A stretch of 24,573 nucleotides of DNA from the IMG/VR virus record IMGVR_UViG_3300049846_001136, positions 1 to 24,573 of that record; one strand, 5' to 3'. A program made the position numbers and the translations under genes. This document shows, piece by piece, positions 4,084 through 22,785 of this stretch (position 1 is its first letter; the number at the start of each line of letters is the position of its first letter). Under the pieces are notes generated by a model. That model was not told the origin of the DNA and searched no databases. It worked only from the letters and a program-made list of their open reading frames with translations. This DNA is from a virus.

Positions 4084-4895
4084 GCCTTTATCTCCGTAAT
4101 TGTTATTGAAGATGCTGAAACACCTCCAAATAATTGAGTCCCGGAATTATCCCCATTAAAATAGTGAGTTCCGGAAGAAGCCCCTATTCTTACTTTAAAA
4201 GTTGTTGCTGATGTTGTGCCGGCGGTCATGTAATGTTTTAGATGAAATACACCAACCTCACTCGTTGTAGCTAAATCATCCCTAACAGCGGCTAAAGCAT
4301 TAGCTGTAGAATCTTGAAATAATGCACAAGCCATTCCAGATGTTCCAGCTCTTGATGAGCAACATATAACGTCTATAAGGAGTTTATTAGAAGAGCTACT
4401 TGGAGTTATCGCTAAAGTCATTACTTGCGTCCCTTCAGTATTCTGTGGGATTGTATTATCAAGAGGAATCGCGGTAGAGCATGTGGCAACAGCTCCTGCC
4501 ATAGTATTAACTACTTGAACTACCATACCGGCAACAGCAGTTGTCGAGGGGGTTACAAGAGTTCCATCATCTCTTACATATTTAGTTCCATCTGGAGTAC
4601 CACTTGCTAAATTAGCGATTGGTATAATTCCTGCCCCACTTGGAGTTGAAGCAAGCCCTGTTAGGGATGAGCCATGAACCTTAGAAGCAGTAGTTATTTG
4701 AGCAAGTTGTGTATCAAGAATGTTTGCAGAAGCGGATAGTTGTGTTCCTACAATTCCAGCAGATGAAGATAAATCGCTTGTAGTTAGTGTTCCAGACAAA
4801 GTTCCTGTGGCGGTATCTATTAGATTATGAAAATCAGTCTTTGATGCTGAGTCGGGAAGAGAACTTCCCCTTGTAATTGTGATAGTCGCAGACAC
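4080..4895 (-). CDS. Tail fibre/appendage-like structural protein with C-terminal beta domain
   Basis: The 271-residue protein is Ser/Thr/Ala-rich. The N-terminal ~110 residues are repetitive (TTSDLSSSAGIVGTQLSASA, ILDTQLAQ) as in phage fibre shafts. GTKYVRDDGTLVTP near 102-115 is a common phage fibre linker. The C-terminal ~150 residues contain PLDNTIPQNTEGTQVMTLAI and PSSSSNKLLIDV, recognisable from a beta-sandwich domain found at the ends of many environmental phage appendage proteins. The start is GTG, preceded by AGGAG about 8 nt upstream; no ATG is available at this position. It sits between the nozzle gene and the gp13-like gene and overlaps the latter by 4 nt. It probably attaches to the tail nozzle (inference). 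Confidence 0.7.
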   Translation of the reverse strand: MSATITITRGSSLPDSASKTDFHNLIDTATGTLSGTLTTSDLSSSAGIVGTQLSASANILDTQLAQITTASKVHGSSLTGLASTPSGAGIIPIANLASGTPDGTKYVRDDGTLVTPSTTAVAGMVVQVVNTMAGAVATCSTAIPLDNTIPQNTEGTQVMTLAITPSSSSNKLLIDVICCSSRAGTSGMACALFQDSTANALAAVRDDLATTSEVGVFHLKHYMTAGTTSATTFKVRIGASSGTHYFNGDNSGTQLFGGVSASSITITEIKA

Positions 4896-6559: not shown

Positions 6560-7515
6560 TAAAACACACCATATCTTGAATCATTAACATTTGAATTTGA
6601 TTCATGGTATCTATATGACTGAGGCCGAAACAAATTAAGCTTATTTGGCTGGTTCTCTGTGTCAAAGAGAAGGTTAGCAAGTCTCTTTTCAAATATTATA
6701 TCCATGTCTGCCGCCTTTGAGAATTGGCGCTTAAACCTCCAGGCATCTGCTGTAGCGCCTGCCTCAAGAATATCGGCACAATCAATAATAGGGTAATCAT
6801 AATCTTGAACCATTGGAAGCATCTTTGGAATGTAGATAACATCAATAGTTAATGTTGCATTTGGGATATTAACCAACCTCATAACTTTAACTCTGTACTC
6901 AAGCATAGCCCTTGACATAACAGCTATTGTTTTTGCGCCAGAATTTGATGTTACTGTAATAGTGCCGGATGTTAACGCTGATTTTGATACTGAAACTATT
7001 CTGCTAAATGATTTTGTGGTAGATACAGTTGTAGTTCCATTAATTTGTTTCTGCTCATAATCTTCATAACCATTTGAATCAAAACCCTTTACATACATTA
7101 TTTGTGAGGTATCGCTTGCGGATGAGGACACAAAACTAATAACACTTGCGGATGAAGGTTGCTCTTGATAAGTTTTATCCAGAATAACATACTGCTTAAC
7201 AACACCTGTATCATCTGTAGAGTACGGGTTAAGCATAACATTTGACTGTGAATCTACTCTTGAGAGATTTACCTTATTCGTAGCATCTCTAACAATGATT
7301 TCCTTTCCAAAGTCGCTAGGAAGTATATAATCCTCTGTCCCGGATGTTGTGCTAAATGAATAATCAGCACGATTTACATCAAGAATGTTTGTGCGCTTTA
7401 ATACCTCAGCCATACGGTCATTGATATAGCTTTTTATAAGGCTACTCATAGCCGAGGTAGAATCTCCTATCATAAGCCCTACATTATTGGTAATTGTCGC
7501 AAAAGTTCTATTCAT
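6559..7515 (-). CDS. Head-to-tail adaptor (SU10 adaptor-like / tail tubular A-like)
   Basis: The 318-residue protein begins with a helical segment (MSSLIKSYINDRMAEVLKR, about 23-41), followed by YSFSTTSGTEDYILPSDFGKEIIV, the typical 'y.f.T..g...Y.LP.df' strand pair of phage adaptor proteins. A Ser/Thr-rich beta insertion lies around 125-200. The C-terminal helical part (DYPIIDCADILEAGATADAWRF) matches the ring-forming helices of adaptors, and the last 40 residues are extended. Adaptors of this type bind the portal ring and seat the nozzle. It lies directly before the nozzle gene. ATGA couples it to the preceding glycosyltransferase gene, so the cargo block is in the same transcription unit. 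Confidence 0.75.
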   Translation of the reverse strand: MNRTFATITNNVGLMIGDSTSAMSSLIKSYINDRMAEVLKRTNILDVNRADYSFSTTSGTEDYILPSDFGKEIIVRDATNKVNLSRVDSQSNVMLNPYSTDDTGVVKQYVILDKTYQEQPSSASVISFVSSSASDTSQIMYVKGFDSNGYEDYEQKQINGTTTVSTTKSFSRIVSVSKSALTSGTITVTSNSGAKTIAVMSRAMLEYRVKVMRLVNIPNATLTIDVIYIPKMLPMVQDYDYPIIDCADILEAGATADAWRFKRQFSKAADMDIIFEKRLANLLFDTENQPNKLNLFRPQSYRYHESNSNVNDSRYGVF

Positions 7516-8210
7516 GCCGTTTCTATGTCCTTTAATTCTGATTTAAAATCTTTATAGCCGCAGAAAGCCATGAAACTTTCAAGTTCTAAGTTCTTGGATA
7601 TAGGCTTTGTGCCATTAAATAACCTTACTTGGTCTTTATGTTTAGCGCTATTTCTCCAATAGATATCTTTAAAAGGTTGTAGGAATTTAAAGTGATGAAT
7701 AGATATTTGAGAGGATAAATCTTTCCAAGGGTTTGTAATGCATCTAGTTACGAAGAATTTAACAGATGGTTTTACAAGGGCAAGAGGCGTATTGCCCTCA
7801 TCATAGAGAGCTATAGTTGATAAATCATTAAAGTATGGTATTGTTCTCACTCCAAACGCTTCCATTTCTGGAGTTTGGACGGCGAGCTCCAATATACGCC
7901 TTTGGTCTCCTAATAACATTATTTCATCCGAGTCAAGTAAAAAGACATAATCACAGTCTTTTAGAGCATTCATAGCCATATTTCTTTGATTGTGCTCAGA
8001 ATCTCTTGCCCAGTTTCCACGTAATATTTCTAGGTTATCTAAATTAGCCCTCTCGCATATCTCTATAGTATTATCTTCCTGGCTTTGCGTATCATCCCAG
8101 GGCATTGTTGAGTTTGTAACAAGAATTCTATCCATCCATGAGACACTGCTAAGGACCGCTGGAAGAAAGTGAGTAAGTTTATAACAAGGAATATGGACTC
8201 CTATTCGCAA
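7512..8210 (-). CDS. GT2-like glycosyltransferase
   Basis: The 232-residue protein opens MRIGVHIPCYKLTHFLPAVL, a short GT-A start. HNQRNMAMNALKDCDYVFLLDSDE (73-96) follows, with the D-x-D metal site at Asp93-Asp95 and the 'R-N' helix that precedes it in GT2-type enzymes. The nucleotide-sugar-binding beta strands are short. The size is enough for a single catalytic domain. The donor and acceptor are unknown. The start codon is TTG at 8210 and overlaps the stop of the preceding gene by 10 nt; GAG lies 8 nt upstream. No membrane segment is seen, so it should act in the cytoplasm. It is the last of four consecutive transferase genes. Confidence 0.75.
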   Translation of the reverse strand: MRIGVHIPCYKLTHFLPAVLSSVSWMDRILVTNSTMPWDDTQSQEDNTIEICERANLDNLEILRGNWARDSEHNQRNMAMNALKDCDYVFLLDSDEIMLLGDQRRILELAVQTPEMEAFGVRTIPYFNDLSTIALYDEGNTPLALVKPSVKFFVTRCITNPWKDLSSQISIHHFKFLQPFKDIYWRNSAKHKDQVRLFNGTKPISKNLELESFMAFCGYKDFKSELKDIETA

Positions 8211-8884
8211 AGTAGTTTCTCAAGCCAAGGGTCGCACTTTAAACGAGAATCTTTAATAGACTTAAACCAGTCAAGCTCCTCTCTTAGCTTATGGTCATAA
8301 CCCTTAAGATTCACTGTCCATTTAGATAGGTCTTTCATAGAATCCAGAGGGTTTATGTACTCAACTTCACCTGTCGGCACATTAAATGTATTCAGGAAAT
8401 AATCCTTTCTATATCCAAATCCTTTACAAAAGGAATAGCCAACAACAAATAGTTCTGCGATAGGGTATTGTAGAAAGTCATAAATTGCACACATCCCTTT
8501 TGTTGGACTTCCAACGACATCTCTTATTTTAAGCTGGACATCAAAAGGTTGATAAGATATTGGGAGTCTATCATTATTTAACTTTCTAAATTCTAGAAGG
8601 CCATGACTATCCGGCCAAATGTAATTAACATATTTTACTCCCTCACTTAACCACTGGTTGTAAAGCCCAGCCTTATCAATAGAATACTTATCTGACCAAA
8701 ACCAGAAATTCTCACATAGAATATCTGTTCTGCTTCCAACCTCATCCTTTACAAGTGGAGCTAGATTTCCAACCCTTGCTACAATGTCATATGAGTCTAT
8801 TAGGCTACCAAGACTCATTATTTCTGTTTGAGCGCCTGGGGCTACCAATGCAACTTTTTTCCCTTCTAAAATCGATTTGAGCAT
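8201..8884 (-). CDS. GT29 sialyltransferase-like protein
   Basis: The N-terminus GKKVALVAPGAQTEIMSLGS then IDSYDIVARVGN (about 8-40) and DEVGSRTDILCEN resemble the L-motif region of GT29 sialyltransferases ('G.s......g..Id.yd.ViR.N....dvG.rtd'). GSPTKGMCAIYDFLQYPIAELFVVGYSF (125-152) resembles the S-motif region. His198 and Glu203 form the H-x4-E of the VS motif. The protein has 227 residues and lacks the N-terminal membrane anchor of animal members, as expected for a soluble bacterial or phage version. GT42 enzymes have a similar outline, so the alternative is a CstII-like enzyme. No CMP-sialic acid synthesis gene is seen in the window, so the donor would come from the host, or the donor is a different CMP-sugar. 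Confidence 0.65.
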   Translation of the reverse strand: MLKSILEGKKVALVAPGAQTEIMSLGSLIDSYDIVARVGNLAPLVKDEVGSRTDILCENFWFWSDKYSIDKAGLYNQWLSEGVKYVNYIWPDSHGLLEFRKLNNDRLPISYQPFDVQLKIRDVVGSPTKGMCAIYDFLQYPIAELFVVGYSFCKGFGYRKDYFLNTFNVPTGEVEYINPLDSMKDLSKWTVNLKGYDHKLREELDWFKSIKDSRLKCDPWLEKLLCE

Positions 8885-9558
8885 ATATAATTCTTAAATT
8901 CACCGGATAGTTCATAGTTTAAAAATGGAGGCAAAAAAGAAATGTTCTCATTGATTCTTCTCTCTAAGTCATCTTTATCATATAAGCCATTCTGGACAAA
9001 AAACTCCCTAGTATATTTTATTCTATTGGCATCCATGTATTTAAAGTGAAGAAGCGCATTCCATGATGGGAATTTTAAAAGGCCTCCTTCAAAGGAAGCT
9101 CTTATTTCCTCATGAAACTGTTTATGCCAAAGACAACTGCTATTTTTCTTAAATAACCTTATTTCACAGCCTGTTTCTTGAAGGCACATCCCAAAGGTTA
9201 CTAGGTGGTATATGGGAATTTGTATTCTATCTACGCCCTGTGCCTCTATCTTAGAAAGAGACTCTTTAAAATCCACCATAAGATTCTCAGAAGGAATCTC
9301 ATCAGCATCTATTCTAAATACCCAATCACCATCTTGAACAAGGCTTAAAGCGGCATTTCTCTGATCTGAAAAATTTAACTCAAACTTCCTTTCAATCCTT
9401 GTAATAATAGGCCATGACTCAAGATATTCTTTTGAACCATCACTAGATAAGTCATCAACCACAATAATCTCATCACATATCTTTGCGACCTTTGGGATTA
9501 AGCTACGAAGGTATACTAATTCGTTGTGACAGAGAATATTTGCTACTATTTTAGGCAT
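8866..9558 (-). CDS. GT2 glycosyltransferase
   Basis: This is a clear GT-A fold enzyme of the WaaE/TPR-associated GT2 type. The sequence IVANILCHNELVYLRSLIP (4-22) is followed by the strand EIIVVDDLSSDGS (30-42) that binds the nucleotide, then FSDQRNAAL (63-71), the D-x-D motif RIDADE with Asp84 and Asp86, and the conserved WHKQFHEEI with His149-Glu150. The 230 residues make one complete catalytic domain without a membrane segment. The N-terminal domain of the 760-residue neighbour has the same motifs in the same order, so the two are paralogues. It overlaps genes on both sides (13 and 19 nt), consistent with a single cotranslated glycosylation cassette. Confidence 0.85.
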   Translation of the reverse strand: MPKIVANILCHNELVYLRSLIPKVAKICDEIIVVDDLSSDGSKEYLESWPIITRIERKFELNFSDQRNAALSLVQDGDWVFRIDADEIPSENLMVDFKESLSKIEAQGVDRIQIPIYHLVTFGMCLQETGCEIRLFKKNSSCLWHKQFHEEIRASFEGGLLKFPSWNALLHFKYMDANRIKYTREFFVQNGLYDKDDLERRINENISFLPPFLNYELSGEFKNYICSNRF

Positions 9559-11828
9559 TTAACCCAAGCCTTTGCCACATCTTCCCAGGTTGGGGGGGTA
9601 TGAACATTAAATGTATAATTCTCATCATACAAGACATTTATTAGCGCCTTAGCATATTCCTCGTTATTTGTTCCGCCTTTTCCAGGGACTTTTACTCCAG
9701 ATTGGACAGTTTCATTTAATGCCGCAAAATCTGTTGTTACCGGAATACAGCCGGAGGCTTGAGCTTTCATTGCGCTAATACATGATATTTCTTCATAAGA
9801 GCATGGATAAGCATAAACACCAGCCCTTTGATATTCCTTGATTAGTTTAATATGCCCTACTCTTCCATGCTCTGTAATTCCAATTTGTTTCATAAGAGGA
9901 ATCATCTTCTTCTTAAATTGAAGAAGATTATAATCCCCTGATTTAATAAGCTTGTCGATATTGTTCCAGCCATAGAATATATGAAGCTCGGCATCAGGGA
10001 TAAACTCTTTAACTTTTCCCCAAATCTCAAGCAAATGCTCTAAGCCCCTATCATAGCTTGATGCATAGATTATCCTGTGAGGAATTCTCTTTAGCCCATA
10101 ATCTTTAAAATCCTCAAGGTTTATCCCATTTGAAGATACAAATATTTTGCTCTCAGGAACAAATTTAGGGAGTAATGATTTGTGGAATTCTGATAACACC
10201 ACAACTTTGTCTATATTATCAATATGTGTTTCAGGCAAAAGTTTTGTTGGCTGGACATCATGTAGCCATACCCATTTATTCTTAGCTATAATTGGAAACC
10301 CAAATATAGAAACTCTCCAGGATATAAGAGTATCAAAGGTATCTCTTGGGTTAAATTTCTGATAGTTAACATAAGATACTCCGTTATACTCTCCCTCCAT
10401 TGTTCCGCAACCATTAAATACCGTAACTTTCTTTCCAAGCTTTGTAAGTTCACGGCTTAGGTAGATAACAGCCTCTTCTGAACCGCCAATCCCAGTTACA
10501 ACAGAAGGGTCTGCCCATTCATCAAGAACAGGGCCACAGTAGATAACAACAGTGTTTTTATCCCATGTGTTTGGTGGGAGCATTTTATTGCGGGCATTGT
10601 AAATATAAGCATTATCCTGCATATCAGAGGGTATGACACTGAAGAAATCTTTAAGCTTATTTGGTTCTCTTGATTTTATAAAGTTTGCTATGTATATAAA
10701 CTTCTCCGCAAAGTTCTTATCTTCAACAGCTTCCTCAAACATCTTGGAGTTATTCTTTATGAAATTAAATGACGGGGCAAGTTTCTTGGCATAATTAAAC
10801 AGGGCTAGAGCTTTATCATAGTCGTTTAGATTAAAATAGCAATAAGCCATTGTTAACGCCGGACGCCATGTATAACTTGAAGGGTCATAAAGCATAACAC
10901 TATCTTCCGGTGGGTTTTGCTTCATTCCAAATTCTCCCCAAAAAAGAGCTTTTTTCCACTCGGATTGTTCAAAATAAATTTCATGGAGTTTAAGATAAGC
11001 ATCAGGATATGAGGGGATTTCAAGCATAGCTTCCATAGCACATAGCTTTGCCTCTTCAGGCTCGTCCTTCTTAATATGACACTCGGCAAGCTGTATCCGG
11101 CTCATATATCTATCTTCGTCCCATCCTGACTTCTGAATGTGTTTTACAAGAAAGAACATAGCCTTATCTATGTCATTGACGGCAAGGAGATTACGCCCAA
11201 GATACGCAAGTGTTCTTGGGTCTGTATTCTCTTTATCTTGGTTATATTCCTCAATTAAGATTTCTATGTTGCGAAGCGCTGATGTTAAAGACTGTTCCTC
11301 TGTCTTTTTATGGACAATCCTAAATGACTTATCCATTACAAATCTATAATTTGTTGTGTCCTTTGGAAGGATATTCTCATGAATCTTTTTATTCCAATAG
11401 AGATTATTATTATCATTTCTAATAATTGTCTCTCTAAAATGCCCTGCTATTATATTTCCATCATCATCATGAGCATACTCATAGAATGCATAAACAATGG
11501 AAGTCTTCTCGGCCTTTGCTTTCTTAAAAGCTGATACAACATTCTCAGGATTAAGTATTGCGTCATCACAATCCATTCTAAAATAATACTCACAGTTTAT
11601 CTTTGAGGCTAAGAAATTTCTTTTATGAGCGAAGTCTTTTTGCCACTTATATTCATACACAAAAAGATTAGGGTAATCGGTCTTTAACTTACAAAACTCA
11701 TTAAAGTTATAATCAACCGCTATATGAATCTCATCAAATAAACTGTTATAATCTCTTAAAATCCTCTTAACTTCTTCTATCTCATCTTTTACTATGACCG
11801 CTAAGGCAAGTTTTCCGTTCTTAATCAT
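9546..11828 (-). CDS. Multidomain glycosyltransferase: GT2 - TPR-like - GT4
   Basis: Three parts are visible in the 760 residues. Residues 1-165 are a GT2 domain (AVIVKDEIEEVKR, FAHKRNFLA, D-x-D at Asp86/Asp88, WNKKIHENI with His150-Glu151). Residues about 185-370 are helical repeats with TPR-like spacing (for example LAYLGRNLLAVNDIDKAMFF, ALTMAYCYFNLNDYDKALAL). Residues about 425-760 are a GT-B/GT4 domain with the Gly-rich loop GIGGSEEA (446-453), VVVLSEFHKSLL, SSNGINLEDF and the donor-site region SYEEISCISAMKAQASGCIP. The second Glu of the usual E-x7-E motif is Lys688. Such a protein could add two sugars in sequence. It is the first transferase in the cluster; the ATG at 11828 follows the Zn-ribbon gene by 21 nt. 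Confidence 0.85.
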   Translation of the reverse strand: MIKNGKLALAVIVKDEIEEVKRILRDYNSLFDEIHIAVDYNFNEFCKLKTDYPNLFVYEYKWQKDFAHKRNFLASKINCEYYFRMDCDDAILNPENVVSAFKKAKAEKTSIVYAFYEYAHDDDGNIIAGHFRETIIRNDNNNLYWNKKIHENILPKDTTNYRFVMDKSFRIVHKKTEEQSLTSALRNIEILIEEYNQDKENTDPRTLAYLGRNLLAVNDIDKAMFFLVKHIQKSGWDEDRYMSRIQLAECHIKKDEPEEAKLCAMEAMLEIPSYPDAYLKLHEIYFEQSEWKKALFWGEFGMKQNPPEDSVMLYDPSSYTWRPALTMAYCYFNLNDYDKALALFNYAKKLAPSFNFIKNNSKMFEEAVEDKNFAEKFIYIANFIKSREPNKLKDFFSVIPSDMQDNAYIYNARNKMLPPNTWDKNTVVIYCGPVLDEWADPSVVTGIGGSEEAVIYLSRELTKLGKKVTVFNGCGTMEGEYNGVSYVNYQKFNPRDTFDTLISWRVSIFGFPIIAKNKWVWLHDVQPTKLLPETHIDNIDKVVVLSEFHKSLLPKFVPESKIFVSSNGINLEDFKDYGLKRIPHRIIYASSYDRGLEHLLEIWGKVKEFIPDAELHIFYGWNNIDKLIKSGDYNLLQFKKKMIPLMKQIGITEHGRVGHIKLIKEYQRAGVYAYPCSYEEISCISAMKAQASGCIPVTTDFAALNETVQSGVKVPGKGGTNNEEYAKALINVLYDENYTFNVHTPPTWEDVAKAWVKCLK

Positions 11829-14301: not shown

Positions 14302-14641
14302 AAGTTTTATTAAGCCCAAATGCCTTTTGATTCTTTGAATGCTTAGGCATAAAATCTATTGCCCCTCCTGTTGGGTCTGCACTGCCTCTAAGCATCCTTG
14401 AGGTTATTTGAATAACTCTTTTATATTCATTCTCTTTTTTACCTTGCACAGAGCCTTTCATCAGCTCAATCATATCGGGAGACGGGGACATTGTTTGAAC
14501 TGCCTCTGTAATAGACCCAAGAGATGTAGCCCTATTCATGGTTATAGCACCGAGAGCCTCAATATCATCTTCGTCCTTTGCCGTACCAAGTTTTGAATAA
14601 ACAAATGAAGAAAGAAGTCTTAAATCATCTTTACCTGCCAT
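14219..14641 (-). CDS. SleB-like protein lacking the expected catalytic Glu, in the head gene cluster
   Basis: The 140-residue protein resembles the SleB/cell-wall hydrolase domain. LLSSFVYSKLG then IEALGAITMNRATSLGSITEAV (9-48) aligns with the family's 'LA..iy.EA.GE...g..aVa.V.lNR....f...i..V', and RMLRGSADPTGGAIDFMP (82-99) matches the 'G...DPTgGA..F' block. The residue aligned with the catalytic Glu after 'Y-A/S' is Lys17, so it may be catalytically inactive, or the active acid may be elsewhere (Glu24 and Glu28 are near). Its place between portal and scaffold genes suggests a structural or assembly protein rather than a free lysin. The C-terminal 25 residues are Ser/Gln-rich and unstructured-looking. 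Confidence 0.6.
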   Translation of the reverse strand: MAGKDDLRLLSSFVYSKLGTAKDEDDIEALGAITMNRATSLGSITEAVQTMSPSPDMIELMKGSVQGKKENEYKRVIQITSRMLRGSADPTGGAIDFMPKHSKNQKAFGLNKTYATKNYNFYSSPKQSSGGVQNMQTPIV

Positions 14642-14649
14642 AAATCCCC

Positions 14650-15078
14650 TTAGCTATGATATGTATTCCCCTGACTTGTATTAATTGTTGTCTGCCCTTT
14701 TGAGACTCCCTCATCATCATAATCTTTCTTGATGTTTCCTTCCGGGCTTCTAAATACCTCAAGTTCTTTTTGAGCAAGCTCTAAGTCATGTTTATAAGAA
14801 GGCAGTAGATTCATAAAAGTTTGAACAGCCATCTTACTTGCTTGCATCTGCTTAAACCTTGGCGATTGAACATCCTCATACGCCCAAGACAAATCTAATC
14901 CCTTTGCTGTATTCTCGTAATCCTGCTTTATTTCCTCCCAAATGGGATTATCGGTTAACTCCGATACAATTCTTTGACACTTTGAAATCTTCTTTATTAG
15001 AAACTGCTCATAATCAGAATTCTCTAAAACTTCCTCATTTCTTTTTTGGTTGCTTGCTTGCTTGCTTTTCTTTGGCAT
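14650..15078 (-). CDS. Hypothetical protein following portal (142 aa)
   Basis: No family is recognised. The protein has a very basic N-terminus (MPKKSKQASNQKRNEE), then charged helical segments (SDYEQFLIKKISKCQRIVSEL; KHDLELAQKELEVFR) likely to form coiled coil, and a polar C-terminal tail. The start lies inside the portal gene, overlapping it by 44 nt, and is supported by GGAGAG about 7 nt upstream, so the overlap is probably real. A gene of this size and composition between portal and scaffold may be a head assembly or portal-associated factor (inference by position). Confidence 0.65.
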   Translation of the reverse strand: MPKKSKQASNQKRNEEVLENSDYEQFLIKKISKCQRIVSELTDNPIWEEIKQDYENTAKGLDLSWAYEDVQSPRFKQMQASKMAVQTFMNLLPSYKHDLELAQKELEVFRSPEGNIKKDYDDEGVSKGQTTINTSQGNTYHS

Positions 15079-17128
15079 CTAGTGCTCTCCTTTCAAGGTC
15101 ATATTCCATCTGTTTTTCAATCTGTTTATCTTGATTCATAAGCATTCTTCCTCGGACATCCGGCTGCATTCCAAGCTTCTGAACAACCTGTGCTTTCTCT
15201 CCGTCAGCTAGAGATTCAAAGTCAATTTTCAGAAGTTCATTCATAGTATCAGGATTTGGAGGTTGAGGTTGAGGATTGTAATAAAGCTCTGCATTCTCAA
15301 TATCAAGTGTTTCATAGAATAACTTCATGGCATTTGCAAGTTGCTGAGGTCCTACAACCCCTGTTTGTAAAGCCACTGGGTTTGTAGCGCCCATCATAAC
15401 TGTTTGGGCCTTCTGTAATCTAACATTAGGATTTGTATTCTGGTCATTACCTCTAACAGTTATACGATATTTACCTTGAATTTCCTCACGGGTAAGTTTT
15501 AACCTCTCCCACTGATTCTGGAAGTATTCAAACTCATATTCATCAGGCCCATATTGACACCATAAATCCCACATCATAGAGAATAGGTCTGAGAACTTCT
15601 CTATATGTAAAGAGGCATCCAGGCTAAATACTTTCTGCTGGTCTTGTTGTTGAAGCGAGACTTCACCAAATGTACGTGGCTCCCTCTTATTAATCTGAGA
15701 TTGTAGAGTAAAGTCTGCCTGTCCTATGCACTCTTCTATCCTCCCAAGCAGTATCTGTTCCTCCTTCTCATAGGAGAACTCCACATTAGGGTTATTGTTA
15801 TTCAATATGTCTATCGTATTTCGCAGGTCTCCCATGCCGTGAATTGGGATACCCTGGTTAGGAATAAATTGCACAAGGTTTGGATTAACCATTCCAGCAC
15901 GATAAACAAACATGGGAGTATTCCTAATCGTCTGCTGGTCAATCTTCTGCATATGCTGGATATCAATTTCTTTAATGATATCTTCAATAAGCTCAACTAA
16001 CCCCCTATGCGCATACCACCTATCATCTGTTAACTCATAGTACAGTTTTACAAATGGCCACTTTCCATTATTAAGCGTCAGACTTATTTTTCTTAGAACC
16101 TTTTTAAATTCAGGCGCTAATGTAAATACACACTTCTCCGGCTCTCCATCCCCATTTAAGTCATACCATTCATACCACTCTACTATCTTAACGTGACCTG
16201 AGGGATTGTTTAGCCTCTCAATTCCCTCTCTCATATTCTTTGTCTGATCTGTAAGTTTAACCTTAGCGTCCTTAAAAGCCTCAATCTCATCAATAGCTTT
16301 TTTATCCCACCCTTTTCCTATAGCATTTTGCTTAATCTCATGAAGAGGCTTGTACATAACATGCCCGCAGTATTCAAGTCTTTGCTCATCAAAGCCACCA
16401 TCTGAAGGGGCATAAAAATCCTCAGGAGAAATTATCTCAATATCAGGGGAATCATATAAAACATCTTTTAACTTAATAGATATTTCTTCTTCTCCAGACA
16501 AAGCCTCTTTAACTGCCTCCATCAACTCCTGGGTATTCTCATCCCGAACTCTATCGGACATATCGGCTTCTGTAACTTGAGCAAGTAGCTGTACAAGTTG
16601 CTCCTCATTCTTATCCGGGTCAAAGAATTCAATGAGCTCATCCACTTCCATGTCGTCTAGCCTAAATGTCTCAAGACGTGTAGTAGTCTCTACACGATAA
16701 TAGGGCTTAATAATGTAGAATCCCTTCTCAAGCTCCTGGTCTATCGCTATAACACTTCTTGGCTTAATCTTTGCCACATTCATAAGAAGATGGTCTAGAA
16801 ACTTCTCTATCTTCCTTGCTGTTTGTGTATTCCCTGAAGGAGTTGGAACTACCTGAGCTACTGGCCTAATTCCAAATATTACATTAACTAAAGCTGATTT
16901 TAACTTCCTAATCTTTGTTTCTGCGGTAGGCATGCGGATATTTGAACACCCGACAAATGGAAATGTCTTGGTTTTCTTAATTCTCATCCGCAATCTATGA
17001 AATTTGTCTTGATTGGCAAGCCAAGTAGAAGTGTTGGCCTCGCAAGTCTCTATCTTTTTTTCAATATGGGAATAACATTCCTCTGAAGTAGGCACTTTAT
17101 TCTCTTTCTTCTTAGATTTATATTCCAT
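15035..17128 (-). CDS. Portal protein
   Basis: The 697-residue protein has the landmarks of large podovirus/SU10-type portals. FPFVGCSNIRMPTAE (56-70) and the helical wing follow the N-terminus. GFYIIKPYYRVET (136-148) and ISPEDFYAPSDG (233-244) are typical clip/wing strands. EWYEWYDLNGDGEPEKCVF (317-335) has the 'y D.nGDG..E' signature. YAHRGLVELIEDIIKEID (372-389) is the conserved 'G..e.l...q.eiN' crown/stem helix region. The last ~45 residues are Lys/Glu/Gln-rich (a barrel-like tail). It would form the dodecameric DNA channel that docks TerL. It lies 33 nt downstream of TerL, preceded by AGAGGG. Confidence 0.9.
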   Translation of the reverse strand: MEYKSKKKENKVPTSEECYSHIEKKIETCEANTSTWLANQDKFHRLRMRIKKTKTFPFVGCSNIRMPTAETKIRKLKSALVNVIFGIRPVAQVVPTPSGNTQTARKIEKFLDHLLMNVAKIKPRSVIAIDQELEKGFYIIKPYYRVETTTRLETFRLDDMEVDELIEFFDPDKNEEQLVQLLAQVTEADMSDRVRDENTQELMEAVKEALSGEEEISIKLKDVLYDSPDIEIISPEDFYAPSDGGFDEQRLEYCGHVMYKPLHEIKQNAIGKGWDKKAIDEIEAFKDAKVKLTDQTKNMREGIERLNNPSGHVKIVEWYEWYDLNGDGEPEKCVFTLAPEFKKVLRKISLTLNNGKWPFVKLYYELTDDRWYAHRGLVELIEDIIKEIDIQHMQKIDQQTIRNTPMFVYRAGMVNPNLVQFIPNQGIPIHGMGDLRNTIDILNNNNPNVEFSYEKEEQILLGRIEECIGQADFTLQSQINKREPRTFGEVSLQQQDQQKVFSLDASLHIEKFSDLFSMMWDLWCQYGPDEYEFEYFQNQWERLKLTREEIQGKYRITVRGNDQNTNPNVRLQKAQTVMMGATNPVALQTGVVGPQQLANAMKLFYETLDIENAELYYNPQPQPPNPDTMNELLKIDFESLADGEKAQVVQKLGMQPDVRGRMLMNQDKQIEKQMEYDLERRALDAKEKQASKQPKKK

Positions 17129-17161: not shown

Positions 17162-18625
17162 TCAACTATTCCAACCATAGTCATTGGGCATCTTAACCTC
17201 ACTCTTATCAAACTTATTATCTTGAGACATAAAAACAGGCTGTATTAATTGCTCGGCATATGCCATACAATCAATAATGTCATCCCATCTTTGATCTAAA
17301 TTTGGATTAAGTGAGGCTATTTCTTCGAATGCCTCATCATGAGACTCCCCAATGTAATATTTGCCTTGCTCAAATAGTGGTTGAAGCGCCGCTATAATTC
17401 TGGACGCCTTCCCTCTCTTAGCTACCCCTTGGGCGGTAATATACGTATTCTTAAGCTCCGCAAACGGTGGATATATCCTCCTATCATTTGCTTTATTAAC
17501 GAAGCTCCGAAATATCTCCGACTCTGTTCCTTGAGCCGGAATCCCAAGGGATGTTATTATGGTCCTACTAGACAACCACATATTTAACACAGAATCTATA
17601 AACTCTCCTTGCGGCGCATGTGTTCTAATATACGAAACTAAATACCTATTCATCTTCTGGTCTATTCCAACAAGGCAGGCTACTTTAAAATCCGCATGTT
17701 CCTCCTCTGAATAGGCAGGGTCTACGGTAATGACGCATGATAACTGTTGGGGAAGCTCCTTCCACCTTCTTATCTTATCTTGTGATATAGATGTTGTATC
17801 AGATGCCATTGGGTCATTTAGGTATTCTGAGCTAAACGCCCAGGAGCCTATTTCCTTTTTTCTCTGTTGCAATCTTTCGTGAGGCCAAAGTTCCGGCCAA
17901 AGCTCATTGCCTTCTTTTTCAACCTTATCATGATAAGCCCTATATATCTTCTTCTCCCAACCGTTATTAGAATCAAGTATTTGTTTAAGCACAGCAAGTT
18001 GGGATATAATTGAACCTACTATTAATAGTTGACCGGAAGGAGTTAACGCAGGCAAGCATGACTTAAATATCCAGTCGGAAACTTTTCTTCTTTGTTCCTC
18101 TGACTTTACAGAATCATCTGTCTCTATATCATCTAGGATGATGCAATCGGGTCTAAATCCTCTAATCTGTCCTTCCGACCCTCTTGCCCTAAATGTAACC
18201 CCTGTCTTAAGAGTAGCATGAGTCTCACTCCACTTGTCCGTTATCATATCCCCAAACCATCTTATTAACTTCTGATTTGACTCAAACTCTCTCTTAACTC
18301 TCCGAAGCATTTCTTTCGCAAGAGTTTCTGAGGCAGAGATGATAACGATATCCTGATATTTATTAAACACTCCAAGCCATATTGGGTAAATAATAGAACA
18401 CACATAGGACTTTGCGAATCCCCTTGGGGCGGCCACAACAAGGCGCTTCTCTACAAGAAGCATTTCATACATATCTCTATGAAACTGAGGAATCTTAGAG
18501 GTTAATAAATGCCCTAGAAATTGCTCTGCAAATATCCTTATATCCTCGGCGCAGGCTTTTATAAGAGCTGTCTTTATGTCCTCTTGCTCATGAGGGCTTA
18601 TCTTCTCAACAAGTGTTTTTCTCAT
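17162..18625 (-). CDS. terL: Terminase large subunit
   Basis: This packaging motor ATPase and nuclease has 487 residues. The Walker A-like P-loop is AAPRGFAKS (65-73). The strand DIVIISASETLAKE (92-105) precedes it in the ATPase core order. Walker B CIILDDIE (161-168) carries Asp165/Asp166 and the catalytic-type Glu168, and LLIVGSII (200-207) is the coupling motif. The nuclease domain starts CVITVDPAYSEEEHADF (297-313) with Asp302 as a first metal ligand. DQRWDDIIDCMAYAEQL (444-460) supplies the C-terminal acidic residues. Length and all motifs are intact. The start overlaps the stop of the aminotransferase gene as ATGA, which ties cargo cluster A to the packaging operon. Confidence 0.95.
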   Translation of the reverse strand: MRKTLVEKISPHEQEDIKTALIKACAEDIRIFAEQFLGHLLTSKIPQFHRDMYEMLLVEKRLVVAAPRGFAKSYVCSIIYPIWLGVFNKYQDIVIISASETLAKEMLRRVKREFESNQKLIRWFGDMITDKWSETHATLKTGVTFRARGSEGQIRGFRPDCIILDDIETDDSVKSEEQRRKVSDWIFKSCLPALTPSGQLLIVGSIISQLAVLKQILDSNNGWEKKIYRAYHDKVEKEGNELWPELWPHERLQQRKKEIGSWAFSSEYLNDPMASDTTSISQDKIRRWKELPQQLSCVITVDPAYSEEEHADFKVACLVGIDQKMNRYLVSYIRTHAPQGEFIDSVLNMWLSSRTIITSLGIPAQGTESEIFRSFVNKANDRRIYPPFAELKNTYITAQGVAKRGKASRIIAALQPLFEQGKYYIGESHDEAFEEIASLNPNLDQRWDDIIDCMAYAEQLIQPVFMSQDNKFDKSEVKMPNDYGWNS

Positions 18626-19722
18626 TTTATACTAAAAAGAACCTCTATTATCCTATTGATATCACTCTTGGTATGTTCTGTTGATAGAAATAGAAGCCCA
18701 TTTGAACCAACGTGAATACCGCTTCTAATAAAAACCTCCCTAGTCTTCTTGCGAAGCTCTAAATCTTCAAGCCTATCTCTATCGGCCCTTGATTCAGGGA
18801 TACTCTTAGTAAATAGCAATCTTAGAAATGACCCAACGCCTATAACCGATAACTTCTTATGATTATCAATAGAACACTTAAGATACTCGGCCTTAGCATC
18901 TAGCTCCATTAGAACATTCTCATTAACATTCTTTAACACTTCATTTCCGGCAGATAGGGTAATGGGATTTCCTGAAAATGTTCCTCCAAGAAAAACTTTA
19001 TCTGCTAATTGGTAATGCTTAGAGAGTGTAACTATCCCAATAGGAAAGCCCCCTCCAACAACCTTCCCATAGGTTGATATATCGGGTCTTATGCCATAAA
19101 TCCTTCTGCTATCCGTTCTTATCCCCGATATAATCTCATCAAATCCAAGTAGAATATCATTCTCATCACAGTATTTTCTTAAGGCTTCTATTAATGGCCT
19201 GTTGATATAGGGGTTTGAACCTTGGAATGGCTCAATAAATATCATGGCCGTCTTTCCTGGACAAATTCTATCCAACTCGCAAGCATCATACTCAATCTCT
19301 TTTACATTCTCCGCATACACCCCATTCTTATTTGAGAAATAAACTGTGTCATCATAACTTCCATGCCAAGAACCTTTAAATATCACAATCTCTTTGCGCC
19401 CTGTAATACACCTTGCTATTCTAAACGCTCTCATAACAGCCTCAGAGCCTGAGTTGCAGAACACAACATCTCTAAACTTAACATGCTTATTGAGACTCTC
19501 TAAAAACTCCTCATGTATCTTATGAGGATAGGCAAAGGCTGTGCCATTTGATATATCGCCCACAAGCCTTTTTTTAAGAAACTCCGGGGAATGGCCGAAT
19601 AGATGCACGCCTCCCGACATAGAGAAATCAAGATACTTTTTTCCGTTTATAACAATAACTTGTTTGTGGCCAAAATCTACAAGACGGCCTTTATCGTATT
19701 CTGCGTTTAGGACTCTACCCAT
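18622..19722 (-). CDS. Class III PLP aminotransferase, glutamate-1-semialdehyde aminomutase-like
   Basis: The fold-type I PLP enzyme is recognised by SGSEAVMRAFRIARCITGR (91-109; phosphate binding and substrate helix), FKGSWHGSYDD (115-125), IFIEPFQGSNPY (161-172), FDEIISGIR (194-202; Asp195 contacts the PLP ring nitrogen) and YGKVVGGGFPIGI (218-230) with the Schiff-base Lys220. FLGGTFSGNPITLSAG follows. At 366 residues it is shorter than typical GSAM (about 430), mainly at the N-terminus, but the core is complete. GSAM-like enzymes also occur in surface-polysaccharide clusters, where they act on sugar or keto-acid substrates. With neighbouring radical SAM and methyltransferase genes, a modified-sugar or small-molecule role is more likely than tetrapyrrole synthesis (inference). 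Confidence 0.85.
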   Translation of the reverse strand: MGRVLNAEYDKGRLVDFGHKQVIVINGKKYLDFSMSGGVHLFGHSPEFLKKRLVGDISNGTAFAYPHKIHEEFLESLNKHVKFRDVVFCNSGSEAVMRAFRIARCITGRKEIVIFKGSWHGSYDDTVYFSNKNGVYAENVKEIEYDACELDRICPGKTAMIFIEPFQGSNPYINRPLIEALRKYCDENDILLGFDEIISGIRTDSRRIYGIRPDISTYGKVVGGGFPIGIVTLSKHYQLADKVFLGGTFSGNPITLSAGNEVLKNVNENVLMELDAKAEYLKCSIDNHKKLSVIGVGSFLRLLFTKSIPESRADRDRLEDLELRKKTREVFIRSGIHVGSNGLLFLSTEHTKSDINRIIEVLFSIK

Positions 19723-20498
19723 AACTTCCTATGCTCTTCTCCGTGAACAATTCCATTTGCGTCACATTTATTACAGGGTGAATCTTTTCGAGCCTCGAAC
19801 AATTTCTTTCTAAACCGTGTCATATGGTCTGATTTCCAGATGTCAAATAAAGACTCCGTATTTATATTCCCAAACTTAACTTTCCGATTCCAATCTTGAG
19901 GACACAATAGCACATCTCCATTCCAGTCAATCATCATGGAGTAGGCAGGGTAATAGCAGGGATTACTTATTTGGGCAGTATTTAATGTCCCTCCCCTATT
20001 TGTAAGTTTAAAGCCATCAAATCTTGGCCTTATCATAACCCTATCCATGTAATCCTTTGTCATTGTCTCAATAATAGAAAGCCTCTTTTTCTCATACACG
20101 GATATTAGGAGCATATTGATGCCAAGCTTCATAAGCACCTCAACCTTAGCCTTACTCAAATAATCTCCATTAGTCACAACATCCACTTTGCAGACTTCAC
20201 TAAGCAGACCAACCGCTAACTGCAAATCCTTGTACATAAAAGGTTCTGAGAACCCTGAAAATACTACAAGGCCCTTGTAATTTAATGCCCCAAGCTGTCC
20301 ATACAACTTCTTAATAAGCTCAAAGCTCATCTCATTCGGGTTATTTGGCGCAATCTCACTATTTGATCTTGGGCAAAAAGTACAAGCTCTATTACAAGAA
20401 TCAATAGGAGATATTTCAATAATACTCGGTAGAGGCACGCCATCTTTTAATACCAAAGATTCTTGAATAACCTTCTCCAATCTCTCTATATTATCCAT
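19707..20498 (-). CDS. Radical SAM protein with C-terminal SPASM-like cysteines
   Basis: The [4Fe-4S]/SAM motif C-x3-C-x2-C is at Cys35, Cys39 and Cys42 in ISPIDSCNRACTFCPRSN. The barrel continues with VVFSGFSEPFMYKDL (78-92), equivalent to the 'GGEP' SAM-contact motif but written GFSEP, and VVTNGDYLSKAKV (107-119). Later cysteines at 181 (NPCYYP), 199 (GDVLLCPQDWN), 242 and 245 (CNKC) match a SPASM/twitch auxiliary cluster domain. The 263 residues make a complete protein. Related proteins modify peptides or sugars; the substrate here is unknown. It overlaps the aminotransferase start by 16 nt, suggesting that the two enzymes work in one pathway. Confidence 0.85.
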   Translation of the reverse strand: MDNIERLEKVIQESLVLKDGVPLPSIIEISPIDSCNRACTFCPRSNSEIAPNNPNEMSFELIKKLYGQLGALNYKGLVVFSGFSEPFMYKDLQLAVGLLSEVCKVDVVTNGDYLSKAKVEVLMKLGINMLLISVYEKKRLSIIETMTKDYMDRVMIRPRFDGFKLTNRGGTLNTAQISNPCYYPAYSMMIDWNGDVLLCPQDWNRKVKFGNINTESLFDIWKSDHMTRFRKKLFEARKDSPCNKCDANGIVHGEEHRKLWVES

Positions 20499-21121
20499 TA
20501 GCTTCTCTTCCTTGCCACAATGACCATAAATCCTGTGCTTTCGTCCACTAGCGGATAAAACCTATTTATATCCTGATGAAAGTAACTAATGCTATACCCT
20601 TTTAAGATATTTGAGAATATGCTAAGGAGTTCTTTTTTTGGCAACTCATTTACATGGTATGGGTTTGTGACATAGGGCTTATTATCTTTTAACCTTAGCA
20701 TTGGTGTTGTAAGAAACAAAATCCCATCTTCTTTTAGCATCACATTAAAATCAATTAGCATATCTATAGAATCTGATTTCTTTAGATGTTCAAACGTCTC
20801 TATGCACACAATAGAATCATACCTTAGACTTGTATCAATCGTCTTTATGTCCTGCTCAACAAACTTTATGTCTTCCTCACTGTTAAAAGCCTTTGCGTAT
20901 GTAATAGCATCATGAGAAATATCAATCCCAGTCACTGACCCTGAATACCCAAGTATCTTTGAGCCATAGCCTGACCCGCAAGAACAGTCGAGTATTTGGC
21001 CGTAGGCAAAGTTTTGCGCAAAAAAATAACGTGAAATGTGCTTTACAACATTATCATTTGTAAAATCAAAAGGTTCTTTAATGTAAAGTCTCTCAGGGCT
21101 AAGCTCTTTGGCTTTATTCAT
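20498..21121 (-). CDS. Class I SAM-dependent methyltransferase
   Basis: Motif I is ILDCSCGSGYGSKIL (53-67 counted from the upstream ATG), followed by the acidic residue of SVTGIDISHDAI, then IKFVEQDIKTI and the UbiG-like 'post' motif YDSIVCIETFEHLKKSD. LKEDGILFLTTPM is the usual next strand. Two starts are possible. The ATG at 21151 has no ribosome site and overlaps the small zinc gene. The ATG at 21121 has AAAGG about 5 nt upstream and lies 2 nt after that gene's TAG, so I chose it; the domain is complete either way. The substrate cannot be read from sequence; a sugar or the product of the adjacent enzymes is plausible. Confidence 0.8.
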   Translation of the reverse strand: MNKAKELSPERLYIKEPFDFTNDNVVKHISRYFFAQNFAYGQILDCSCGSGYGSKILGYSGSVTGIDISHDAITYAKAFNSEEDIKFVEQDIKTIDTSLRYDSIVCIETFEHLKKSDSIDMLIDFNVMLKEDGILFLTTPMLRLKDNKPYVTNPYHVNELPKKELLSIFSNILKGYSISYFHQDINRFYPLVDESTGFMVIVARKRS

Positions 21122-21123
21122 TT

Positions 21124-21330
21124 CTACCTTTCCATAAGACAGTTTAGACATATAATCATATAGCTTTTGTTGTGTTTATAACAAAAATCCCAGTTGTTTA
21201 CTGACTTGTAAATAATCTTTGTGTACAAAACCCTCCGCCTCGTCCATCTTTTTGCGCAATCAACACAAACACATGCCGGTTCATGGCCAGGGTTTCTACC
21301 TCTCTTAACTTCCTTATCCTTTCTTCCCAA
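21124..21330 (-). CDS. Small zinc-binding-like protein (68 aa)
   Basis: The frame has a basic N-terminus and cysteines spaced as CVCVDC (20-25) and then C-x2-H ... C-x2-C at Cys50, His53, Cys61 and Cys64, enough for one or two zinc sites. I recognise no family. The start is TTG, preceded by GGGGAG at 7 nt, a better ribosome site than most genes here, so a TTG start is credible. It overlaps the end of the FkbM gene by 17 nt and ends 2 nt before the preferred start of the methyltransferase, fitting the operon tightly. The function is unknown. Confidence 0.6.
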   Translation of the reverse strand: MGRKDKEVKRGRNPGHEPACVCVDCAKRWTRRRVLYTKIIYKSVNNWDFCYKHNKSYMIICLNCLMER

Positions 21331-21937
21331 TCACAAGCTCCCCATAGTTAAAGAACTCAAAGCCATGCTTTATAAGACTATTAAGAATCGCAGGCCGAAC
21401 TTTAAACTCATCATGTATTTCTATTGCGATAGAACCGACATTTACAAGCCATGAATCTTCAAGAAACAACTCTTTCTCTCCGCCTTCTATGTCAATTTTG
21501 ACAATATCAGCCCCATCTCTTACTAACTCATGTATCGAATACCCTTGGATTGTTTGGTCCTCGGATTCCTTGGCGGGCTTGGCATAGTATGACCATTCTT
21601 TTGAGTCCCTAAAATCACGCCCAATAGATAGTAGACAGTTTTCACTCCACACCCCGCCATGAATTAACTTGGCATTTCTTCCTTCAAGGTTCATTTTGGC
21701 AATATTATAATTATCTCTGTCAATTTCAAGCGCAACTACACTAGAATTCTTAAACTCTTCCAAAAAGAACACGGATGCGAAGCCCACATTGGCCCCGCAA
21801 TCGAGGATTTTTAGATTTTGGCCCGCCTCAAACAACTCCACTATCGGCTGATACTGCCTCTCAATAAAAACTTGGTGCCAGCTACTTAAGTCCGACGCAG
21901 GCGGCGTTCGGCACAGCAACTTTCGGCCACTCTCCAT
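21314..21937 (-). CDS. FkbM-family methyltransferase
   Basis: The 207-residue protein shows the FkbM methyltransferase landmarks: motif I ILDCGANVGFASVFFLEEF (44-62), the acidic residue in VVALEIDRDNYNIAKMNL (67-84), and DIVKIDIEGGEKELF (144-158), whose 'K-I-D-I-E-G-x-E' is diagnostic for the family. SIAIEIHDEF follows. FkbM enzymes O-methylate sugars or polyketide hydroxyls. Here the substrate is presumably a glycan, given the transferases downstream (inference). It is the first gene after the 308-bp non-coding region and has the strongest ribosome site in the window (AGGAGG with ATG about 7-11 nt on), so it may be well translated. Confidence 0.85.
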   Translation of the reverse strand: MESGRKLLCRTPPASDLSSWHQVFIERQYQPIVELFEAGQNLKILDCGANVGFASVFFLEEFKNSSVVALEIDRDNYNIAKMNLEGRNAKLIHGGVWSENCLLSIGRDFRDSKEWSYYAKPAKESEDQTIQGYSIHELVRDGADIVKIDIEGGEKELFLEDSWLVNVGSIAIEIHDEFKVRPAILNSLIKHGFEFFNYGELVIGKKG

Positions 21938-21994: not shown

Positions 21995-22049
21995 AGGGGA
22001 GGGGGTTTATACACATAAATCGACCCCCATGGGGGCCTCCCCCCTCCCT
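21995..22049. repeat. C/G-rich nested inverted repeats
   Basis: The left arm AGGGGAGGGGG (21995-22005) can pair with CCCCCTCCCT (22040-22049), with one bulged base. Between them lies the perfect 12-bp palindrome CCCCCATGGGGG (22024-22035). Three to four G-runs occur on each strand, so G-quadruplex formation is also conceivable, though the loops are not ideal. There is no U-run downstream in the leftward transcript, so it is not a standard intrinsic terminator. Confidence 0.55.
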
Positions 22050-22087
22050 CTCCCTAATACCAAGGAATTTTTTCTCATAGTCATGTA

Positions 22088-22155
22088 AAATATGATAAAT
22101 AATCAAATTTTATTGATACATTTACATTATTTGAAATATGATAAATAATCAAATT
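22088..22155. repeat. Two direct copies of a 22-bp AT-rich repeat
   Basis: The copies at 22088-22109 and 22134-22155 are identical over 22 bp, with core TATGATAAATAATCAAATT and a 46-bp period. Weaker similarity continues for about 12 bp after each (TTGATACAT versus TTGATGTAT). AT-rich direct repeats at this spacing could be iterons of an origin, or binding sites of a regulator or of TerS. The right copy also supplies the -35 of a candidate leftward promoter. Confidence 0.7.
22124..22152 (-). promoter_or_regulatory. Candidate leftward promoter for the late operon
   Basis: Read on the minus strand: TTGATT (22152-22147), 17 nt, then TAATGT (22129-22124). Both boxes deviate from consensus and the region is AT-rich, so a chance match is possible. 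It would serve the FkbM gene and everything downstream, including TerL and the structural genes, if terS readthrough is not enough. Confidence 0.3.
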
Positions 22156-22205
22156 ACCTTGATGTATTAACAAGTGGCGCATAATGCGAGAATTACAGAG
22201 GGAAA

Positions 22206-22243
22206 CATACCAAGCGGTATGTATTTACATACCAAACGGTATG
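22206..22243. promoter_or_regulatory. Tandem 16-bp palindromes, operator-like
   Basis: CATACCAAGCGGTATG (22206-22221) and CATACCAAACGGTATG (22228-22243) are separated by 6 bp. Each has perfect 6-bp arms (CATACC/GGTATG) and a 4-bp centre; only one base differs between copies. The 22-bp period puts both on the same face of the helix, as for a dimeric repressor binding cooperatively. The pair begins 2 bp beyond the terS stop codon. In RNA the same sequence forms two consecutive hairpins, so an RNA role (processing or attenuation after terS) is the alternative. Confidence 0.65.
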
Positions 22244-22245
22244 GA

Positions 22246-22785
22246 TTATGCGAGCTCTTGGGCTTCGGCGTCCTGGGATTCTGTGTCAAGTGCTATATTT
22301 TGCGCTGTTTTTTCGATTAAAAATGGTGGGATTTTTGGTTGACGAGGTGATATCATTTTGCCATTTTCTTTCAGATAATTTCGGATACTTTCGAGCTCTC
22401 GATTATCGGCAATTATTGTGATATTTTGGGCGCCTTCAGAATCTCGTAAGTACTTGGAAGGATGTATTTTAGCTATTAGTTCATTGGCTCTAATTCTATC
22501 GCTATCTTTACCTGACTTTTCTGCTATTTCAACAAACCTTTTTAATACTTTTCCTAAAGTTTCTGCCTCAATAACATCCGACTCTACAAGCTGCTCCGCT
22601 ATGGCATCCTTAATAAGCTTGGACTTCATTAGCGTGCTTGCGCTGGCCGTTGCAAGCTTGCGATTTGGTTGATTGTAGGCCATGCTATAGGCCTCGCCTT
22701 GATTATAATTAGTCTTTGGGAGCATAAGAACAAATTTGCGCTGGAGTGGCTTGAGTTTATATATTGCGCTTTGCTTGGAGGCCAT
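22246..22785 (-). CDS. terS: Terminase small subunit
   Basis: The 179-residue protein begins with LKPLQRKFVLMLPKTNYNQGEAYSMAY (about 11-37), followed by a helix with ATASASTLMKSKLIKDAIAEQL (45-66). These are the DNA-binding helices of TerS proteins ('L...Q..F......N...A...AY', then 'A...as.Lmk...v...I..ql'). The central helical region (VLKRFVEIAEKSGKDSDRIRANELIAKI) would form the oligomerisation core, and the C-terminal tail is polar and acidic. TerS recognises phage DNA and hands it to TerL. Unusually, TerL is 3.6 kb away. The ATG has no ribosome site: the predicted transcript starts on or next to it, so leaderless translation is likely. Confidence 0.85.
   Translation of the reverse strand: MASKQSAIYKLKPLQRKFVLMLPKTNYNQGEAYSMAYNQPNRKLATASASTLMKSKLIKDAIAEQLVESDVIEAETLGKVLKRFVEIAEKSGKDSDRIRANELIAKIHPSKYLRDSEGAQNITIIADNRELESIRNYLKENGKMISPRQPKIPPFLIEKTAQNIALDTESQDAEAQELA

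Follow-up and report, generated by a model that had tools for sequence, protein, structure and literature searches.

Which function is served by a block of five genes inserted between the genes for the small (terS) and the large (terL) terminase subunit of a phage? This question is raised by IMG/VR virus record IMGVR_UViG_3300049846_001136, a genome fragment whose 24,573 bases were analyzed in full (referred to as the window). The cassette encodes two methyltransferases, a small zinc-finger-like protein, a radical S-adenosylmethionine (SAM) enzyme and a pyridoxal phosphate (PLP) dependent aminotransferase. We consider it fairly probable that it is a sugar-tailoring module derived from a bacterial surface-glycan locus, which occupies the slot between terS and terL and feeds host-surface or virion glycans. 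The genes of the locus are listed in the direction of their transcription.

22246-22785, minus strand: terS, gene for the small terminase subunit, which borders the slot on its upstream side (phrog_51, E = 1.7e-8; PF03592 just under the cut-off)
21314-21937, minus strand: FkbM-family methyltransferase (TIGR01444, 60.6 bits, cut-off 37.7; PF05050, 34.8 bits, cut-off 22.7)
21124-21330, minus strand: Cys/His (zinc-finger-like) protein of 68 residues with a TTG start (C-terminal half WxxCxKHxKxxxxIxCxxC conserved)
20498-21151, minus strand: MT2, class I SAM methyltransferase (PF13489 and PF13649 above curated cut-offs)
19707-20498, minus strand: twitch radical SAM enzyme resembling BtrN, a putative dehydrogenase of sugars (PF04055 and PF13186 above curated cut-offs)
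18622-19722, minus strand: class III PLP aminotransferase of a radical-SAM-linked clade, not HemL (PF00202, E = 2.1e-33)
17162-18625, minus strand: terL, terminase large subunit (phrog_38, E = 1.1e-82)

A preliminary description of this DNA had proposed an overlapping five-gene cassette coupled to terL by an ATGA sequence. Coordinates and overlaps were re-derived and confirmed this layout. From the FkbM gene via the genes for the zinc protein, MT2, the radical SAM enzyme and the aminotransferase to terL, the head-to-tail overlaps amount to 17, 28, 1, 16 and 4 bp; the 4-bp overlap is the ATGA sequence. A gap of 308 bp separates terS from the FkbM gene. Matches to portal and capsid proteins place the locus in the packaging and head region of the window, and the phage is presumably podovirus-like. 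The coupling to terL makes late expression together with the packaging genes plausible. For MT2 an internal ATG may serve as start codon, since the homologue in the related contig L144 begins at the equivalent of residue 16. The 68-residue protein matched no family in Pfam, PHROG and TIGRFAM-type profile searches; a regulatory or scaffold role would be a guess.

The radical SAM enzyme and the aminotransferase

The radical SAM enzyme carries the CX3CX2C motif at C35, C39 and C42. Four further cysteines (C181, C199, C242 and C245) are invariant in 15 sequences and align with the auxiliary-cluster cysteines of BtrN, and the Arg of a (S/T)NR(G/A)G motif is likewise aligned between the two proteins. 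BtrN, the 2-deoxy-scyllo-inosamine dehydrogenase of the butirosin pathway, catalyzes the two-electron oxidation of an aminocyclitol hydroxyl group and ligates its auxiliary cluster by four cysteines (PMC9012708). A family-profile search returned BtrN (4m7t) with an E value of 3.6e-36 over nearly the full length, followed by the next different protein at 5.3e-7. BtrN was also the top PDB match of the predicted model (E = 2.3e-18, 31% identity), and the twitch dehydrogenase SpeY was matched at 2.3e-6. The model had a mean predicted local distance difference test score (pLDDT) of 77 and a predicted template modelling score (pTM) of 0.81. The likeness to BtrN, and more distantly to SpeY, comprises the twitch fold, the three plus four cluster cysteines and the motif Arg. 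In contrast to BtrN, the enzyme is paired with a class III aminotransferase, and the window contains no surrounding aminoglycoside genes. Alignment and model point to a putative sugar or cyclitol hydroxyl dehydrogenase. The protein had been introduced as a radical SAM/SPASM enzyme. The first part of this name holds, whereas the supposed SPASM domain has four cysteines and in this resembles the twitch domain of BtrN with its single cluster.

In the aminotransferase the PLP lysine K220 was found together with D195. All visible catalytic motifs had been called intact at the outset, and the cysteines of the radical and the auxiliary cluster as well as the PLP lysine and the aspartate were recovered here. 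The model of the protein (pTM 0.81) shows a class III fold (Foldseek E = 4e-27). A relationship to glutamate-1-semialdehyde aminomutase (HemL, also GSAM) had been suggested, and both enzymes do share the class III PLP fold and the catalytic Lys and Asp. By sequence, however, the enzyme of the window is no GSAM. It scores 173.8 bits against the hemL equivalog with a cut-off of 527.3 bits, which the true HemL proteins of four compared genomes pass. An N-terminal GGVNSPVR and a C-terminal SxxEAGF segment are present in these four HemL proteins but absent in the enzymes of the window and L144 and in all seven linked enzymes that were aligned. In the phylogenetic tree the window enzyme joins that of L144 (support 100/99) in a clade (100/99) which contains only radical-SAM-linked enzymes and stands apart from HemL. 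Consequently, a housekeeping HemL identity was rejected on the basis of score, missing segments and tree. The phage record collection gave matches to the aminotransferase that resemble class III enzymes of a generic kind, and several of them lie on bacterial contigs filed as phage.

The cassette in related phages and in bacterial loci

Five close relatives of the phage (L144 to L148) were reached via a search with the capsid protein, and the cassette-bearing L144 was first found in this way. Scanning IMG/VR with the aminotransferase alone or with terL alone yielded no matches. L144 and the window share 79% identity in the capsid protein, 77% in the portal protein and 69% in terL. The gene order of L144 is terS, an open reading frame (ORF) of 124 codons, FkbM, a short zinc-finger ORF, MT2, radical SAM enzyme, aminotransferase and terL. 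Its cassette proteins are 42-50% identical to those of the window (FkbM 42%, MT2 50%), and the short zinc-finger ORF is similar to the 68-residue protein in the latter's C-terminal half, with none of 2000 shuffles scoring as high. All frames are unbroken. Synonymous sites are saturated between the two cassettes (proportion of synonymous differences, pS, 0.79-0.86). The ratio of nonsynonymous to synonymous rates (dN/dS) was therefore not computable for most genes, and the ratio of the corresponding proportions (pN/pS, 0.43-0.48) is given instead. The G+C content of each cassette equals that of its own genome (38.8 versus 39.0% and 46.2 versus 46.6%), the two genomes being about 8 points apart. 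Because the same order at the same place recurs in L144 with intact frames, saturated synonymous sites and genome-matched G+C content, the operon is an old part of this phage branch, kept under purifying selection. The recurrence of this order in the diverged L144 and the intact frames also show that an assembly artefact or cargo in decay is not at hand.

The slot between terS and terL is filled differently in other relatives. L145 carries a 74-codon ORF and an N6/N4 DNA methylase gene (448-1752) without a sugar cassette, L148 has nothing but one 74-codon ORF, and in MW202524 the slot holds just a tiny ORF. L146 and L147, which start within terL, are uninformative on the slot. Since its content differs among L144, L145, L148 and MW202524, the gap between terS and terL is a variable, exchangeable cargo slot in this phage group. 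Linkage of the cassette genes in close relatives, which the preliminary description had singled out for a check, was thus found in L144, whereas other relatives vary in slot content. The 74-residue Cys proteins of L145 and L148 were compared with the zinc protein and match it poorly (scores of 27 and 19 versus 71).

Bacteria carry the same enzymes. Searching with the radical SAM profile led to 21 bacterial loci, and 12 of them contain the radical-SAM-linked aminotransferase in the same locus. MT2 homologues (E ≤ 1e-15) were detected in 4 of 14 such genomes, in all four cases in that same locus; two or more of these homologues are CBS-fused. In the radical SAM tree the enzymes of the window and L144 fall into a clade (100/98) with L099, L101, L102, L103 and L104. 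The nearest aminotransferases, those of L099 and L101, agree with this tree at weaker support. As four of the five bacterial members of the clade are the genomes with MT2, radical SAM enzyme, aminotransferase and MT2 probably arrived together.

The bacterial loci with the module are surface-glycan loci of the flagellin-glycan, pseudaminic-acid and 3-deoxy-D-manno-octulosonic acid (Kdo) type. Flagellin and a Maf glycosyltransferase are neighbours in L098, and a pseudaminic acid synthase is encoded nearby in L102. L104 has genes for a CBS-nucleotidyltransferase, an epimerase, a carbamoyltransferase and an FkbM protein, and L101 has KdsD, DegT and epimerase genes. KdsA, KdsB or KdsD genes adjoin relatives of the cassette in L011, L014, L015, L174 and L101, while none was found in the window, which is a fragment. 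In L174 the genes for MT2 and the radical SAM enzyme overlap and are followed by those for KdsB and KdsA.

Eight other phage contigs (L010 to L016 and L020) have the aminotransferase gene directly or closely behind the radical SAM gene, which in L013 is a distant one. Several of them also encode a cupin, KdsB and KdsA. L023, filed as a virus, resembles the bacterial locus L108 and was left out of the phage count. Because these contigs form separate clades in both the radical SAM and the aminotransferase tree, phages took up the pair on at least two occasions.

Further observations concern the pair itself. Radical SAM enzyme and aminotransferase are nearly identical between L098 (9977-13014) and L100 (3263-6360), which come from Paraglaciecola mesophila and a Nitrosomonadales metagenome-assembled genome, respectively; either a recent transfer or a mis-binned contig would account for this. 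L101 contains two diverged BtrN-like radical SAM copies in one glycan locus (9965-10876 and 14340-15236) with KdsD between them, possibly for two oxidation steps. In Synechococcus phage S-SCSM2R (PQ898602.1, 27890-28615) a SPASM-domain gene adjoins a gene for a histidinol-phosphate-type aminotransferase, which may follow the same scheme with an aminotransferase of a different family.

Proposed pathway and alternatives

The genes and their order, the conservation, the fold families, the bacterial linkage and the glycosyltransferases are observed, whereas the order of the reactions, the substrate, the acceptor and the timing are inferred. In the proposed route, the BtrN-like enzyme would abstract the carbinol hydrogen and turn one sugar hydroxyl group into a carbonyl group, the second electron being taken up by the auxiliary Fe-S cluster. 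The class III PLP enzyme would then transaminate the new carbonyl to an amine, and MT2 and/or the FkbM protein would methylate N or O. Finally, glycosyltransferases, either those of the host or those encoded at 9546-11828 and 7512-9558, would attach the sugar thus modified to the host envelope or to proteins of the virion. The phage genes in question form a second glycan cluster (7512-11828), which lies downstream of the capsid gene, between it and the tail-side genes.

9546-11828, minus strand: 760-residue protein with an N-terminal GT2-like part, TPR and a C-terminal GT1/GT4 part (phrog_13126, E = 1e-27; PF00534)
8866-9558, minus strand: GT2 glycosyltransferase (PF00535, E = 2.9e-12)
8201-8884, minus strand: possible GT29-like sialyltransferase-type protein, weak match (PF00777, E = 6.6e-4, under the cut-off)
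7512-8210, minus strand: possible GT2-like protein, weak match (PF13704, E = 0.0012, under the cut-off; phmmer link to the GT2 protein at 8866-9558, E = 3e-5)

The gene for the 760-residue protein recurs after the capsid gene in all informative relatives (L144, L145, L148 and MW202524). Glycan transfer therefore seems to be a permanent feature of the group, to which the tailoring cassette is an optional addition. The 760-residue protein possibly performs a later sugar-transfer step. The cassette had initially been seen as cargo for an aminated or methylated glycan moiety. Gene order and selection in L144, the linkage to bacterial glycan loci and the glycosyltransferases of the same phage support this view well; the glycan cluster at 7512-11828 had been left out of it.

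Kds and pseudaminic-acid genes are neighbours in the bacterial loci; a Kdo-like sugar or a nonulosonic acid is therefore a reasonable substrate class. The logic is shared with the KdnB/KdnA route to 8-amino-Kdo (Kdo8N) in Shewanella, where a surface-sugar hydroxyl group is oxidized and then transaminated, and several cassette relatives adjoin KdsA, KdsB or KdsD. KdnB, an iron-containing alcohol dehydrogenase, oxidizes C8 of Kdo on the way to Kdo8N (PMC5125639). This likeness is not one of homology: KdnB is not a radical SAM enzyme, and the Kdo link of the cassette is by neighbourhood only. A bolder proposal, which we regard as rather unlikely, is that radical SAM enzyme and class III aminotransferase, with or without the methyltransferase, constitute a route, sensitive to oxygen and so far undescribed, by which an amino-ulosonic acid (amino-Kdo or nonulosonate) is made. 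Such a non-homologous counterpart of KdnB/KdnA would have spread among the surface loci of bacteria and been captured independently by at least two phage lineages, in the present one into the exchangeable slot between terS and terL.

Several points weigh against a sugar-tailoring function. Radical SAM enzymes of the same fold can catalyze different reactions, for instance epimerisation, and similarity to BtrN is only about 30%. In the model of the radical SAM enzyme residues 163-182 and 238-263 are poorly predicted. The window, itself a fragment, contains no sugar-nucleotide or sugar-synthesis gene, and no substrate is assignable to the module. Moreover, the atom methylated by MT2 could be O, N or C.

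Among the alternatives, the same chemistry with a product that decorates the capsid or tail of the virion instead of the host surface survives best, although we judge it unlikely. The position of the 760-residue glycosyltransferase gene behind the capsid gene, in the window as well as in the four relatives, fits this idea, as does translational coupling to terL, which would be suited to use during assembly. Capsid glycosylation by phage glycosyltransferases has been described for mycobacteriophages, according to work cited in PMC11256854. However, the bacterial homologues reside in cell-surface loci (flagellin, pseudaminic acid, Kdo), and a glycosylated virion is known for none of this phage group. 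For the sugar-tailoring module we slightly favour the host envelope over the virion as acceptor.

Hypermodification of DNA bases by the cassette enzymes is very unlikely. Phages do modify bases with glycosyltransferases as well as with PLP and radical SAM enzymes (see also PMC12619734). Yet no PF00303 protein (thymidylate synthase/hydroxymethylase type) was found in the window, a fragment, or in nine further records, which include two complete relatives, while controls worked, and the nearest homologues in bacteria belong to loci for cell-surface glycans. Slightly less probable again is a pathway to a peptide or small-molecule natural product with the radical SAM enzyme as peptide maturase. 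The SPASM-type domain and distant matches to models of peptide and metalloenzyme maturases are in line with it, but all maturase scores are far under the curated cut-offs, there is a single four-Cys auxiliary cluster as in BtrN, the fold search favours BtrN by about 11 orders of magnitude, and no precursor peptide was seen in the window or L144. Least probable of all is that the genes are passengers present by chance or in decay, or that the assembly is chimeric. In favour of this, relatives have an empty or otherwise filled slot, and divergence is faster in the cassette proteins than in terL, portal and capsid protein. Against it, the independent contig L144 shows the same order with intact frames, saturated synonymous sites and G+C content matching each phage, so that chance passenger DNA is in practice excluded.

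Phage glycan-modifying genes and phage radical SAM genes are already known. With the phage genes for serotype conversion and for lipopolysaccharide or capsid modification the cassette shares cargo of bacterial glycan type and accompanying glycosyltransferases. It differs from them in encoding tailoring enzymes with radical SAM chemistry instead of an acyl- or glucosyltransferase, and in its place between terS and terL. Campylobacter phages CP220 and CPt10 have radical SAM genes whose products are phage-borne relatives of the window enzyme with 26-27% identity. A module of such genes that can be exchanged has been described for these phages (PMC2853527), but an aminotransferase-methyltransferase-terminase arrangement has not. 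No description of a module of BtrN-like radical SAM enzyme, class III aminotransferase and methyltransferase, of its recurrence in bacterial glycan loci and separate phages or of its slot between terS and terL came up in literature searches restricted to open-licence papers. The preliminary description knew of no phage pathway with this order; the order itself is not unique to the window, as L144 shares it.

The proposed sugar-tailoring module links a widespread, apparently uncharacterized pair of radical SAM enzyme and aminotransferase to surface-sugar chemistry in bacteria and phages, and marks the gap between terS and terL as a site at which this phage group exchanges cargo. If the assignment is true, it predicts a new aminated and methylated sugar by which phages would alter the recognition of cells or particles. 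The cassette provides a compact gene set for expression.

Non-coding elements and the tail side

Promoter and terminator scans gave scores not far above the shuffled background. One conserved element was located in the gap between terS and the FkbM gene.

21998-22011, minus strand: conserved non-coding element TTATatatATAAA(C/T)CCCCTCCC, after terS and upstream of the cargo (L144, 662-675; L148, 767-780; a variant in L145)

A single exact copy each is present in the window, L144 and L148, and none in any unrelated locus among 206. The element sits just past terS once per genome, regardless of the cargo downstream, and could be a late promoter or a cos/packaging site. The same gap harbours tandem repeats at 22083-22172 and 22205-22247, consisting of two copies of 44 nucleotides and two copies of the palindromic 21-nucleotide sequence CATACCaagcGGTATG, respectively. 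They are possible operators. In L144, and in L148 just after terS, none were found.

At 4080-4895 on the minus strand, a weak match to the trimeric Pgp3 C-terminal domain was observed (PF05475, E = 7.6e-5, under the cut-off). The gene product is perhaps a trimerisation part of a tail fibre.

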